The notes under the pieces were generated by a model. That model was not told the origin of the DNA, did not search any database, and saw only the letters and a list, made by a program, of their open reading frames with translations. The position numbers and the translations under genes are program-made. A stretch of 64,000 nucleotides of DNA from positions 483,316 through 547,315 of the forward strand of contig NZ_JALXFV010000002.1 of NCBI RefSeq assembly GCF_023699475.1. Direction: 5' to 3'. How positions within the stretch are numbered: the first letter of the stretch is position 1; every line of letters begins with the position of its first letter. Below, piece after piece: positions 37,249-43,233 of the stretch. Source of the DNA: Halomarina rubra (lineage in GTDB: Archaea > Halobacteriota > Halobacteria > Halobacteriales > Haloarculaceae).

Positions 37249-39987
37249 ATGACAGGAAACAACAAGGTTCGCAGCATCTTCCTCGCTGCGCTGATGGTCT
37301 TCTCCGTCTTCGGCGGGGCTATCGCGCTGACGGGCGGTGTCGCGGCCCAGAGTGCTGCCAATGAGGAATTGGTCGACGGCGACGTCGTCTTCATTGGGCA
37401 GACGGTAACGTATGACAACGAAGGCGACGAGCCTGGTTACACCCTCGTCGACTCCGACGGCCAGCTGGTCAAGGAGTACGGCTCGGGTGAGATCACGCTC
37501 AACATCGACGGTGAGCTGATCACCGAAGGTTCCTACACGCTCCGCGTGCAGGGCACCGACACGGAGATCGACTTCACGGTCTCGACGCAGACCATCTCGG
37601 CGACGTTCGACGGTGAGGACGCCCTCGAAACGACGTCCAACCGTGGTTCCTACCGCGTGACCATCTCGTCGGGCGACCTCCCGAGCGACGTCTCCGTTTC
37701 GGAAATCTTCTCCGACTCGGACGTTGACGGCGACTCGACGAACGGTTTCCAGGTCGACGTCCCGACCGACGGTAGCCTCGACCTCGTCGACACGCTCCCC
37801 GATGGCCTCGAGGAGGGCGAGACGTACGACTTCAACATCGAAGTCGTCGACACTGAAGCGACGGCATCCGCCTCGCTCGGTGTCGGTGTCACGCCTGACT
37901 CCGGTGCGACGTTCACCCAGTCGGCCTACACGGGCGTGCGCGGTGACGTCGTGGAGATCCCCGTCAACATCACGAACGTTGGCAGCTCCAGCACCGTCAC
38001 GGTCACCGTCGGGTCCGAGGACGTGAACTACGAGGCAGAACTGGAAGTCTCCGACGGCAACGGTGACGACCAGGTCGTCATCCTCTTCAACACCTACAAC
38101 ACCCTCGACAACGGCGAGAGCGCGTTCAGCGCTGCCGCATCGGGTGAGGACAGTGTGAACGTCGTTGGTGACGAGCCTTCGCTCGACAACATCCTCTCCG
38201 CGGACGCCGCGTACGACCTTGAGACGCGCATCGACGACGACCTGTCGGACGTCGCAGTCCTCGCGCTGAACGAGGGCTCCATCGACTCGTTCGACATCTC
38301 GACGGCTCCGTCCGCGGAGTCCTTCGGCTCGTCGACCACCGTTAGCGCAGTCGAGAACGTCTCGACGGACACCGGTATGGTCGCCTCGGAAGACTACATC
38401 GTCCACCGCCTCGAGGCCGACGGCATCTTCGGTGCCGTCGAGTCCGCGGGTGGTTTCGGTGACTTCATCGACAGCGACGACGTTACGCTCGAAATCTCCG
38501 AGACGACGGCTAACGTCAACGACAACACGGACTCGGTCGAGCTCAGCTCGAGCGACGTCCAGTTCGTCACCGACGGCGAGGGTGTCTCCTACGTCGTCGT
38601 GAGCTCCGATGTCCTCGGTGAGGACATCGCAACCGGTCAGGAACTCGAGACCTCGCTGACGCTCGGGGCGGACACGAACCTCGTCGCTGAGGAGACGACC
38701 CTCAACGACACGTTCGACTACGTCCCGCGCACGGCCGAGTTCAACACTGAAGAGATCGACGACACGGACACCATCGTTGTCCGCGCAGAGCAGAACGCGA
38801 CCATCTCGGGCGAGAGCTCGGTCGCACCCGGTACCGAATTCAACTTCAACGTTCGCTCGACGACCCGCGACGAGCCCTTCCTCGAGCCAGGTCAGGCAAC
38901 GGTCCAGGAAGACGGCACGTTCGCAGTCGAGTTCGACTTCTCGGGCGTTGCCCCCAACACGACGTTCGAAGCGTCGCTGACGGGTGCAGACCTGATGAAC
39001 GTTAACGACGTCACGGACGTCCCCGGTGTCATCGAGGCACCGCGCACGGCCTCCGTGAGCATCGAGGACCAGGAGACCGACGGTTCGTCCGTCGTCGTCG
39101 CCAGCGCTGAGCTGTCGGACGGTGGCTTCATCACCATCCACGACGCGACGCTGGTCGACGAGGGCGACGCCCTCGGCTCCGTCCGCGGCACCTCCGACTA
39201 CCTCGAATCGGGTTCGCAGTCGGACGTCGAGATCTCCCTCGACGAACCGTACGAGGAGGACGGCACGGCCATCGCCATGCCCCACCTCGACACGAACGGT
39301 AACGAGGAGTACGACTTCGTCACGTCCAACGGGTCGGACGACCTGCCGTACACCTCGAACGGCTCGGCTGTCACTGACAGCGCAGAGCTGACCGTCTCGA
39401 ACAACACGACCGGCAGCGCGTCGGTCACCATCGAGGACCAGACCACGAACGGTCAGTACGTCGTCGTCGCCGAGGCTGCCCTCCCTGAGGGTGGCTTCGT
39501 CACGATCCACGACGGCACGCTCCTCGACGGTGCAACGTTCGAGTCCGTCCGCGGTACGTCCGAGTACCTCGACGGTAACGCGACGGACGTCAACATCACG
39601 CTCGACACGCCGTACACCGAGGACGGCACCGTGATCGCGATGCCCCACCAGGACACGAACGGCAACGAGGCCTACGACTTCGTCAGCAGTGACGGCGAGG
39701 ACGACGGCCCGTACACGTCCGGTGACGGCGGTGCGGCAGTCACCGACGACGCGCAGCTGACCGTTGGCTCGGGCAACGAGTCCACCGACACCGGCACGGA
39801 GCCGACGCCCGGCAACGAGACGACGACGTCGGACGACCCGACCACGGGCACGACCGACGCTCCCGTCACCGACGAGCAGACCGGCACCACGCCCGGTGAC
39901 GACGGTGGCCAGCCCGGCTTCGGTATCGTCGTCGCGCTCATCGCGCTCGTCGCCGCCGCACTGCTCGCAGTGCGCCGCGACAACTAA
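37249..39987 (+). CDS. csg: S-layer glycoprotein with PGF-CTERM anchor
   Basis: This 912-residue protein is probably the main surface-layer subunit. The signal peptide spans residues 1-35 (SIFLAALMVFSVFGGAIALT...GGVAAQ). Beta-rich Ig-like domains with many N-glycosylation sequons follow. Two adjacent copies of a domain with SVSIEDQ, GGFITIHD and AMPHLDTNGNEEYDFV lie at about residues 605-850. The tail is a T/E/D-rich linker, then GQPGFGIVVALIALVAAAL and RRDN, the PGF-CTERM signal. Archaeosortase ArtA cuts this signal and the protein is lipid-anchored; two candidate ArtA genes follow 1.2 kb downstream. ATG 37249 is set by the signal peptide. Confidence 0.93.
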   Translation: MTGNNKVRSIFLAALMVFSVFGGAIALTGGVAAQSAANEELVDGDVVFIGQTVTYDNEGDEPGYTLVDSDGQLVKEYGSGEITLNIDGELITEGSYTLRVQGTDTEIDFTVSTQTISATFDGEDALETTSNRGSYRVTISSGDLPSDVSVSEIFSDSDVDGDSTNGFQVDVPTDGSLDLVDTLPDGLEEGETYDFNIEVVDTEATASASLGVGVTPDSGATFTQSAYTGVRGDVVEIPVNITNVGSSSTVTVTVGSEDVNYEAELEVSDGNGDDQVVILFNTYNTLDNGESAFSAAASGEDSVNVVGDEPSLDNILSADAAYDLETRIDDDLSDVAVLALNEGSIDSFDISTAPSAESFGSSTTVSAVENVSTDTGMVASEDYIVHRLEADGIFGAVESAGGFGDFIDSDDVTLEISETTANVNDNTDSVELSSSDVQFVTDGEGVSYVVVSSDVLGEDIATGQELETSLTLGADTNLVAEETTLNDTFDYVPRTAEFNTEEIDDTDTIVVRAEQNATISGESSVAPGTEFNFNVRSTTRDEPFLEPGQATVQEDGTFAVEFDFSGVAPNTTFEASLTGADLMNVNDVTDVPGVIEAPRTASVSIEDQETDGSSVVVASAELSDGGFITIHDATLVDEGDALGSVRGTSDYLESGSQSDVEISLDEPYEEDGTAIAMPHLDTNGNEEYDFVTSNGSDDLPYTSNGSAVTDSAELTVSNNTTGSASVTIEDQTTNGQYVVVAEAALPEGGFVTIHDGTLLDGATFESVRGTSEYLDGNATDVNITLDTPYTEDGTVIAMPHQDTNGNEAYDFVSSDGEDDGPYTSGDGGAAVTDDAQLTVGSGNESTDTGTEPTPGNETTTSDDPTTGTTDAPVTDEQTGTTPGDDGGQPGFGIVVALIALVAAALLAVRRDN

Positions 39988-40125: not shown

Positions 40126-41130
40126 ATGGACGTCCCGAGTGGCCTCGACGTCGACCTCGACCGGCGGCGCGTGTTGCGCCTGCTCGGCGGGAGCGTCGGT
40201 GCGCTCGCGGGCTTCAAAGCAATCGACAACGTCGTCCTCGGCTACGGCGTGCTCGTCGGGACGAACCTCACCGAACAGGACCTCGACGCCGTCGCCGGTG
40301 CGAGCTTCGGCCCGCAAGCCGACGCCGTCACCCTCGACGACGCGACCCTCCGGTTCGACGACGACACCATCACTGTCGAGTCCTCCCGGGGGACCGACAC
40401 GCTCGACGCGACCGACCGCGAACGAGCACGTCGTCTCGACGAGGACCACGCCCTCGACGGGGCGCTCGTTCGGACCGTCGAGGACCAGCGGGCGTTCGCT
40501 GAGGACGCGGTCGGCTTCGAGTTCTCGACGCTGGAGGCGTTCTTCGAGCGGACGCGGAACGGGGACACCCGCCCCGAGACCGTCGAGCGCTGTCGCGGGC
40601 CGTTCTTCCGGGACGTCGAACCGGCGACCGTCGAGCGGTTCACCGAGGCCGACCCCGCCGACCCCGAGGCGACGGTCCACGGGTTGACCGACGGGTTCCG
40701 GCGCTACGCGGACTACGACGTCCCGCGATACCTCGCGGGGTCGGTCGAGGACAACGTGCTGTTCGGGGCCGCCGACCTGCGGGCGGGGTTCGAAGACCCC
40801 GTCGACTTCGAGTCCCTGCTGGCGGCCGGCGAGACCGGGATGTTCTGTTACGAGTTCGTCTGGCGGTCGATGGAGGCGTTCCACGCCGTGCCCGCCCGCG
40901 AGCAGACGGTGCCGGTCGTCTCGGCGCACGTCTTCGACGCCCGGCACAAGCACGTCTACACCGCACTCGCCAGCGTGCTCCGGGAGGACGGCGAACTGGT
41001 CGTCCCGACGACGTTCGTCGACTACACCCACACGACGATGTACGACGACTTCTTACTCCGTGGCGTGATGGGTGAGGGACTCGAAGCGTACAACACGCGC
41101 CACAGGGCGACGCGAATCCGGTGGTACTGA
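40126..41130 (+). CDS. Unknown surface-locus protein, possible transglutaminase-like C-terminus
   Basis: This is a 334-residue protein. The N-terminus DLDRRRVLRLLGGSVGALAG resembles a Tat-type signal (RRRVLRLL) or a membrane anchor, so it is probably outside or membrane-bound. The C-terminal part has the order Cys (GMFCYEFVWRSM), His (ARHKHVYTALASV) and Asp (TTFVDYTHTTMYDDF), which resembles a transglutaminase-like Cys-His-Asp set. This is pattern reading only. It lies between the S-layer gene and archaeosortase, 57 bases from the latter, suggesting a role in surface-protein processing or linkage. Confidence 0.7.
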   Translation: MDVPSGLDVDLDRRRVLRLLGGSVGALAGFKAIDNVVLGYGVLVGTNLTEQDLDAVAGASFGPQADAVTLDDATLRFDDDTITVESSRGTDTLDATDRERARRLDEDHALDGALVRTVEDQRAFAEDAVGFEFSTLEAFFERTRNGDTRPETVERCRGPFFRDVEPATVERFTEADPADPEATVHGLTDGFRRYADYDVPRYLAGSVEDNVLFGAADLRAGFEDPVDFESLLAAGETGMFCYEFVWRSMEAFHAVPAREQTVPVVSAHVFDARHKHVYTALASVLREDGELVVPTTFVDYTHTTMYDDFLLRGVMGEGLEAYNTRHRATRIRWY

Positions 41131-41187: not shown

Positions 41188-42099
41188 ATGGCATCACCGA
41201 CAACCGACCTGCTGGCGTGGCTCGTCGTCGGACTGTTCGCGAGCGGGTCGCTCCTCGCGACCGTCGATCGCCGCGCGGGTCGGGCCGTCAGTGTCGCCGC
41301 GTGGGTCGTCTTCGCCGGCTTCTGGGCGGTGCTCGTCCCCCACTTCGCGTTCGTCGCCCAGAGCGCCATCGAGGGGGTCGCCGCCGCCGTCGCCGTTCCG
41401 GGCTGTCTGTACGCGGGCTACCTCCTCGCGCGCGGTCGGGACTCGCTGTTCGTCCTCACGCGCGCCGTCGCGGTCATGGGTCTCGTCTACCTGCCGTTCC
41501 TGACGGTGACCGGGCTCAGAGAGTGGCTCATCCTGACCGTCGCCCAGCAGACCGAGTGGGGTATCAACCTGCTGGGGTACCATCCCGAGCGCATCACCGG
41601 CCACGGCGAGTTCGAGTCGCTGTTCGTCTTCCGCCGCCACGGACTGGTCAACACGACGCGCATCGTCCTGATGTGCACCGGCATCGGGAGCATGACCATC
41701 TTCGCGGGCCTCATCGCCGCCGTCGACGCGCCGCTGACTCGCAAACTCCAGGCCGCGGCGGTCTCCATCCCGGTCATCTGGGTGCTCAACATCGTCCGGA
41801 ACGTGTTCATCGCCGTCGCGTTCGGCGACCAGTGGTTCCAGTGGCTCCACGGCCCCGCCGACGCCCTGTTCGCGCTGAAGGGGCCGGAGATGGCGTCGTT
41901 CTACGTCGCCGACCGCGTCCTCGCGCAGTCGGCCTCCGTGGTCGTGCTCGTCGCTATCCTCTGGCTGGTCGTCAAGTACCTGCCCGAGTTGCTCGTCGTC
42001 GTCGAGGACGTGCTGTACATCCTCACGCGCCGCGAGTACGACCTGGCCAGCGCCTTCGACGTCGACCTCCCGGAGACCGACCCGGTCGTCGCGGACTGA
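41188..42099 (+). CDS. artA: Archaeosortase A
   Basis: This is a 303-residue membrane peptidase with about eight hydrophobic segments. The catalytic Cys163 lies in RIVLMCTGIGSM, with Arg204 in WVLNIVRNVFIAV and Arg243 in ADRVLAQ. The spacing 41 and 39 equals that of C173, R214 and R253 in Haloferax volcanii ArtA. It removes the PGF-CTERM tail of surface proteins and permits their lipid linkage. The S-layer protein encoded upstream carries this tail. A second ArtA gene follows 6 bases later. Confidence 0.94.
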   Translation: MASPTTDLLAWLVVGLFASGSLLATVDRRAGRAVSVAAWVVFAGFWAVLVPHFAFVAQSAIEGVAAAVAVPGCLYAGYLLARGRDSLFVLTRAVAVMGLVYLPFLTVTGLREWLILTVAQQTEWGINLLGYHPERITGHGEFESLFVFRRHGLVNTTRIVLMCTGIGSMTIFAGLIAAVDAPLTRKLQAAAVSIPVIWVLNIVRNVFIAVAFGDQWFQWLHGPADALFALKGPEMASFYVADRVLAQSASVVVLVAILWLVVKYLPELLVVVEDVLYILTRREYDLASAFDVDLPETDPVVAD

Positions 42100-42105
42100 C
42101 CGCTC

Positions 42106-43233
42106 ATGGTTCCGCTCGCCCTCTCCGCGCTGTTCACCCTCGCCACTTCGCTCACCCTCCCCGCACAGGTCGCACGTCCCGCTTCACTCGGCGCTCTCGA
42201 CGTTCTCTCACTCGCGGCACTCGGCCAGGCCAGCGGTAGCCCCGTGTCGGCCGTCGTCGACGCGTTCGCGGCGCTCGGAACGTTCGCCGACCCGCTCGCG
42301 TGGCTGGTCGTCGGGACGTTCCTCACTGCGGCGGTCCTCGACGTCGCCGACCGCGCCCAAGCGCGCCCGCTCGCGGTTGTCGGCTGGGTACTGTTCGCGC
42401 TGTTCTGGCTGACGCTCGTCCACCACTTCGTCGTCGTCCAGAAGAGCATCGTCGAGGGGCTGGGAGTCGTCGTCGCCGTCCCGGCGTGTCTGTACGCGGG
42501 CTACCTCCTCGCCCGTGGGCGAGAGTCGCTGATGGTGCTCTCCAGGGCGGTCGGCGTGATGGGGCTGGTGTTCTTCCCCGTCCAGAGTATCGACCCGCTC
42601 CGGGAGTTCCTCATCGAGACCGTCACCCACCAGACGGAGTTCGCGATGGGGCTGGTCGGCCAGACCGCACCCGCGGACTTCTCGGTCGTCAGCGGGACGA
42701 CCGCCGAGCCGCCACAACCGGACTACCGCAACACCTTCGAGTTCTACCAGGGCGACCACCGCATCACCTACACTATCCTCATCGCGTGTACGGGGCTCGG
42801 GAGCATGGCCATCTTCGCGGGAGCCATCCTCGCGGTCCGTGCGCCCATCGACCGCAAACTCCGCGCGCTGGCGGTGAGCATCCCCGTCATCTACCTGCTC
42901 AACGTCGTCCGGAACGTGTTCATCGGCCTCTCGTTCGGCCAGAGCCGCCTCCAAGTGTTCCCGGGGCTCGTGATGGACCTATTCGGGACGAACGACCCCT
43001 ACATGGTGTCGTACTACGTCGCCGACCGCATCCTCGCACAGTTCGGGTCGGTGCTCGCACTCGTCGCCATCACGTGGTTCGTCGTCCGCGAACTCCCGGA
43101 GATCGCCGTCATCCTCGACGACGCGCTGTTCATGCTGACCGGCACGGAGTACGACCTGGCGGCGTCGCTCGGTGCCGAGGGGATCGACGGCCAATCTGTG
43201 CCCACCGGGACGGGCGACCGGCCGATGGACTGA
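42106..43233 (+). CDS. Second archaeosortase A paralogue
   Basis: This is a 375-residue protein clearly related to its upstream neighbour (shared LYAGYLLARGR, VSIPVI, VVRNVFI, YYVADRILAQ). It keeps Cys228 (ILIACTGLGSM), Arg269 and Arg308 with the same 41/39 spacing, so it should be active. It differs by an N-terminal extension of about 60 residues and a longer loop before the active Cys (about residues 186-216, with GTTAEPPQPDYRNTFEF). A different substrate tail or regulation is possible. Start ATG 42106 lies 6 bases after the artA stop. Confidence 0.92.
   Translation: MVPLALSALFTLATSLTLPAQVARPASLGALDVLSLAALGQASGSPVSAVVDAFAALGTFADPLAWLVVGTFLTAAVLDVADRAQARPLAVVGWVLFALFWLTLVHHFVVVQKSIVEGLGVVVAVPACLYAGYLLARGRESLMVLSRAVGVMGLVFFPVQSIDPLREFLIETVTHQTEFAMGLVGQTAPADFSVVSGTTAEPPQPDYRNTFEFYQGDHRITYTILIACTGLGSMAIFAGAILAVRAPIDRKLRALAVSIPVIYLLNVVRNVFIGLSFGQSRLQVFPGLVMDLFGTNDPYMVSYYVADRILAQFGSVLALVAITWFVVRELPEIAVILDDALFMLTGTEYDLAASLGAEGIDGQSVPTGTGDRPMD

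Follow-up and report, generated by a model that had tools for sequence, protein, structure and literature searches.

Two archaeosortase A lineages, two classes of PGF tail and a candidate accessory of lipid anchoring in a Halomarina surface-protein sorting locus

The 64,000-nucleotide stretch of Halomarina DNA analysed here (the window) carries two neighbouring archaeosortase A (ArtA) genes, art1 and art2. We consider it rather probable that they belong to a surface-protein sorting cluster in which two ArtA enzymes of different substrate preference are accompanied by an accessory protein. That substrates would be divided between Art1 and Art2 is well supported by comparison of ArtA types and protein tails across genomes. 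Along the DNA, the cluster consists of a surface glycoprotein gene (37249-39987), an open reading frame at 40126-41130 (ORF 40126-41130), art1 (41188-42099) and art2 (42106-43233), all on the forward strand and separated by gaps of 138 bp, 57 bp and 6 bp, followed by dph5 on the opposite strand. The initial annotation had placed the pair downstream of a surface-protein gene, which is correct, but did not mention the conserved ORF 40126-41130 that lies between them. The nearest named match to the window is Halomarina oriensis, with 81% identity for art1.

The surface glycoprotein combines a PGF-CTERM domain (TIGR04126, 44.9 bits) with a halobacterial surface signal peptide (TIGR04207) and a BGTF domain (NF045517). 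Its tail reads ...DDGGQPGFGIVVALIALVAAALLAVRRDN, with Gln preceding PGF (codon 39910-39912, forward strand). The description of this gene as a PGF-CTERM gene was confirmed, but its S-layer identity is only likely: the protein scored 157 bits against the S-layer glycoprotein equivalog model NF041335, below the cut-off of 1100 bits, and the label is thus not certified by that model.

Art1 (303 aa, predicted catalytic residues C163, R204 and R243) and Art2 (375 aa, predicted C228, R269 and R308) are 49% identical and match the ArtA model TIGR04125 with 325.1 and 325.6 bits (curated cut-off 75 bits), covering positions 1-270 of the 271 in the profile. A whole-genome search found exactly these two ArtA genes. 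Two adjacent, intact archaeosortases had been reported from the initial inspection, and this holds: both are full length, both keep the predicted Cys-Arg-Arg residues and their genes lie 6 bp apart. The spacing of 41 and 39 residues between these residues, likened earlier to that of Haloferax ArtA, is indeed present in both proteins, but the whole ArtA family has it and it is no special trait of the pair. The N-terminal extension attributed to Art2 is doubtful. Orthologues begin at the equivalent of Val47 or with a much shorter leader, Val47 corresponds to a GTG at 42244 that may be the true start, and comparison with H. oriensis shows the stretch as an insertion. It is not conserved among orthologues and was rejected as a functional feature; probably it reflects the choice of start codon or a species-specific insertion. 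Neither the extension nor the spacing carries any argument for a specialised pair.

ArtA was found in 120 of the 123 genomes of the host's taxonomic family, mostly as a single copy, and at least one ArtA in 391 of the 392 genomes sampled across the order; second copies are rare outside the host's family. Close artA pairs are present in two of eight Halomarina genomes; four further genera (g34, g9, g15 and g10) have them too. Art1 was likewise found in two of the eight Halomarina genomes examined, and the remaining ones have an art2 orthologue alone at the same position, without art1 and without ORF 40126-41130. The comparison with the ArtA phylogeny that had been proposed at the outset places the two genes in separate lineages. 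In a maximum-likelihood tree of 116 rows, art2 falls inside a 48-row clade (support 100/99) to which the single ArtA of most of the host's family also belongs, including that of other Halomarina. Art1 lies outside this clade, together with the first copies from g15, g34 and g9 and the sole copy from g37. Constraining all Halomarina ArtA copies to one clade was rejected (p-AU 0.0002); the tree and this test rule out a recent tandem duplication as the origin of art1 and art2. Two other constraints were not rejected, namely one joining the g10 and f14 copies to a single Art1-type lineage (p-AU 0.32) and one placing Art2 and the other g10 copies in a single lineage (p-AU 0.16). On this phylogeny the family's resident copy is Art2, and Art1 comes from a different, old ArtA lineage. 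Each type also occurs alone, Art2 in most of the host's family and the Art1 type in g37 and part of g10.

The residue before PGF follows the ArtA type. Among surface-protein tails encoded next to artA, tallied by hand from the listed tails, Gly precedes PGF at all 43 loci of genomes with Art2-clade enzymes only, one of which belongs to a genome of another taxonomic family (G027) with an Art2-clade enzyme. Where the genome has an Art1-type enzyme, this position is Gln or Thr at 13 of 14 loci; all 13 loci from other ArtA lineages have Gln, Thr or Ile there. Whole tail sets give the same picture: Gly was found in 16/16 tails of Art2-only Halomarina, and 40 of the 41 readable tails in genomes with the Art1 type alone are non-Gly (one is Gly). 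Genomes with both enzymes hold both classes. The window genome, which had been proposed for a search for distinct PGF-CTERM-like tails, encodes nine PGF-CTERM proteins at E ≤ 0.001, two with Q-PGF and seven with G-PGF; the corresponding figures are one Q and six G in G002 (one tail unread), nine and ten in G090, and nine and three in G079, where 12 of 26 tails were read. With the pair confined to two of eight Halomarina genomes and with distinct tails, it is not a duplication common to all close relatives and devoid of separate substrates.

Fisher p-values for the association between tail and ArtA type are tiny, but they overstate it because the unit is the genome and the independent evolutionary events are few. 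Art1 and Gln tails occur together in about five lineages, to which a change in the opposite direction can be added: in G015, art1 sits on a long branch (fast-evolving), ORF 40126-41130 is gone and Gln is found in none of 18 tails, whereas its genus mate G090 has kept both genes and nine Gln tails. Some genomes fit less neatly. The two-enzyme genomes G021 and G130 have some mixed or odd tails, such as GDGAGF, and in g10 the G-tail enzyme falls outside the Art2 clade in the tree, although its inclusion was not rejected (p-AU 0.16). Since haloarchaea of other families with a single ArtA have Thr, Ile or Gln before PGF, the code sets Gly against other residues more than it singles out Gln. Among the alignment columns that set the Art2 clade most clearly apart from the rest are two residues 5-6 positions ahead of the catalytic Cys and a loop between the two catalytic Arg, where a changed reading of the substrate would be expected. 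The clade-separating columns comprise T157/R158, W216/F217 and F238 in Art1, with Y222/T223, R281/L282 and Y303 as their Art2 counterparts. Two g10 genomes with an Art1-type enzyme only (G132 and G016) have tails in which the Pro of PGF is replaced (QAGF, QSGF and QTGF), and therefore Gln/Leu before xGF is better kept than Pro. A larger PGF-CTERM set was also considered as a mark of two enzymes. It holds in g10 (9-23 proteins vs 4-7), as one clade-level event, and fails in Halomarina, where two-enzyme genomes have nine and eight such proteins vs eight and eight in two Art2-only species.

A different account, which we regard as rather less likely than divided substrates although worth serious consideration, is that the surface gene, ORF 40126-41130 and ArtA form an exchangeable cassette that entered by horizontal transfer as one block, and that the Q tail simply travels along. 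The joint presence or absence of ORF 40126-41130 and art1 within Halomarina and the strong variation of S-layer genes between species are both in line with it. However, the two Q-PGF proteins of the window genome are the surface glycoprotein adjoining art1 and a second, unlinked protein, and the orthologues of both in Art2-only Halomarina carry G-PGF; moreover, Q-PGF proteins are dispersed across the genomes of G090, G079, G105 and G108. Transfer of a cassette would explain where the genes came from, and divided substrates could equally hold alongside it. The same two proteins, Gln in the window genome and Gly in Halomarina without Art1, also speak against plain redundancy, where both enzymes would have identical substrates and be kept for dosage or by chance, the tail differences being drift. 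One ArtA suffices in nearly all haloarchaea, and both Art1 and Art2 have retained their catalytic residues, as redundancy would allow. Nevertheless, the two are old separate lineages and tail class tracks ArtA type across several genera, and we judge this explanation unlikely.

Divided substrates are thus the reading we prefer for the two enzymes; the third component of the proposed cluster is the 334 aa product of ORF 40126-41130. Searches of Pfam and NCBIfam returned no family match for it. In a 49-sequence alignment of its family, C241, H274, H276 and D299 are invariant, and a twin Arg (R13-R14) is found in at least 90% of members. Matches to the Tat model are weak and occur in 3-5 of 18 members; the protein is apparently exported by the Tat route. 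An AlphaFold2 model (pLDDT 89.3) places the Cys where a helix begins, the His where a strand begins and the Asp after the next long strand, and the protein may possibly be a hydrolase or transferase of the Cys-His-Asp kind. The order of C241, H276 and D299 and their predicted secondary structure recall transglutaminase-like and arylamine N-acetyltransferase-type enzymes (PF01841 and kin), a resemblance that serves as a lead. The ORF 40126-41130 family gave no significant match by HMM, profile-profile or fold comparison: Pfam transglutaminase models matched none of 18 members, hhalign against the transglutaminase-like PF01841 returned a probability of 0.4%, and Foldseek found nothing significant for the model, with TglA and N-acetyltransferases among the top ranks. 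We therefore rejected its assignment as a recognised transglutaminase.

Within the host's taxonomic family the ORF 40126-41130 family occurs 23 times, in every case in a genome with an Art1-type ArtA, and wherever loci were laid out the homologue lies near the Art1-type artA; six genomes with the Art1 type have no homologue. The ORF is not tied to the Q tail, since g37 relatives that do not have it still have Q. Of the 392 genomes sampled across the order, 65 have a homologue. A phylum-wide sample of 296 genomes gave 11 matches, all from the same order, and none outside the haloarchaea. In f14 a homologue again adjoins artA, with a different gene order. Families f6 and f7 contribute 15 loci at which the homologue immediately follows a gene resembling phosphatidylserine decarboxylase (pssD), and the three neighbours tested scored 318-337 bits against NF038088, the archaetidylserine decarboxylase of the sorting system (cut-off 240 bits). 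The PssA/PssD archaetidylethanolamine branch is required for ArtA lipid anchoring, and an enzyme of the PssD type for ArtA-dependent processing in Haloferax volcanii (PMC7157517). These neighbourhoods suggest that the ORF 40126-41130 product probably serves ArtA lipid anchoring as an accessory, and we regard it as a candidate for this role. Alternatively, the adjacency to artA and pssD could stem from chance or from shared ancestry of one arrangement, as might be suspected from the other neighbours seen in f17, f12, f4 and part of f7 and from the many ArtA genomes that have no homologue. We consider this improbable: in the host's family and again in f14 the gene adjoins artA, with the arrangement differing between the two, and at 15 loci in two further families it adjoins pssD. 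As artA and pssD belong to the same pathway (PMC7157517; NF038088), a double chance hit among several thousand genes would be rare.

Three local observations concern this gene. The genome G082 has a second, degenerate copy (L092:5806-6717) in which the conserved Asp is changed to Glu. At L091 (genome G081), about 1.6 kb of unrelated DNA replaces ORF 40126-41130, although the art1 there hardly differs from the one in G079, where the ORF is kept. In f17 g44 (L141 and L143) the homologue lies between genes for a pyrrolidone-carboxylate-peptidase-like protein and a multi-pass membrane protein (names assigned by eye), and the latter gene is conserved in these genomes.

The initial annotation had spoken of a specialised pair or complex. 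A pair drawn from different old lineages, with Q- and G-PGF classes that track ArtA type, fits the first term; the genome comparison gave no support for a physical Art1-Art2 complex. A heteromeric enzyme or scaffold at the envelope growth site is very unlikely: co-expression is likely because the genes share a direction and have 6 bp between them, but each type occurs alone in many genomes, so that neither needs the other, and in G061 and G025 the second artA copy is on a different contig.

Under the preferred model of two enzymes with divided substrates, Art2 would process the majority of PGF-CTERM proteins, those with G-PGF tails, and Art1 a smaller Q-PGF set, chiefly the surface (S-layer-like) glycoprotein encoded directly upstream. 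Both would share the known ArtA chemistry, in which the catalytic Cys cleaves near PGF, after which the newly formed C terminus would be linked to an archaetidyl lipid that PssA/PssD produce. The apparently Tat-exported ORF 40126-41130 product would assist or follow lipid anchoring outside the membrane, possibly as a Cys-His-Asp hydrolase or transferase. The comparisons themselves show the genes, the ArtA lineages, the tail classes with their joint distribution and the neighbourhoods of the genes. From these we infer that ArtA may read the residue before PGF, that Art1 may take the S-layer protein and that the ORF 40126-41130 product may have a role in anchoring. A more general proposition, that ArtA lineages read the pre-PGF residue to give two separately anchored classes and that ORF 40126-41130 represents a new family of exported Cys-His-Asp enzymes in ArtA/PssD anchoring, is put forward tentatively, as a possibility that falls short of being probable.

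To our knowledge, substrate recognition by archaeosortases is known only as a PGF motif, a hydrophobic stretch and a basic end. A natural system with two enzymes and two tails, together with single-enzyme relatives of each type, offers a direct handle on what ArtA reads. The H. volcanii ArtA/PGF-CTERM system (TIGR04125/TIGR04126) resembles the Halomarina locus in its full-length enzyme family, Cys-Arg-Arg spacing, tripartite C-terminal tail and nearby surface glycoprotein substrate; it has one ArtA, whereas the Halomarina window has two lineages side by side and two tail classes. The known parts of archaeal protein lipidation are so far ArtA, PssA and PssD (PMC7157517), and ORF 40126-41130 is a concrete candidate for a missing step. 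Its relatives directly adjoin pssD (NF038088) at the 15 loci described above, but it belongs to a different protein family, is apparently exported and is not known to be needed. The enzyme type is thus known, and what would be new is the pairing of lineages with two tail classes and a candidate pathway part. Among the open-access papers searched, none described a two-tail ArtA system or a role for ORF 40126-41130.

Departures from the Cys-Arg-Arg pattern were seen among other ArtA relatives. In 26 of 116 relatives the third catalytic position, the second Arg, is occupied instead by K, G, S, N, H or Y. In the g10 pairs (e.g. L096, L098 and L099), the copy at the resident position beside dph5 has Gly or Ser at the position of Haloferax R253; because this is the case in eight genomes, the equivalent residue may be dispensable, or that copy may work differently. 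Divergent ArtA-family archaeosortases at L106, L112, L114 and L115 (genomes G022, G099, G040 and G041) have Tyr at the second Arg position. A single gene whose product carries an S-PGF or V-PGF tail lies 158-265 bp from each of them, and these apparently represent dedicated pairs of one enzyme and one substrate.
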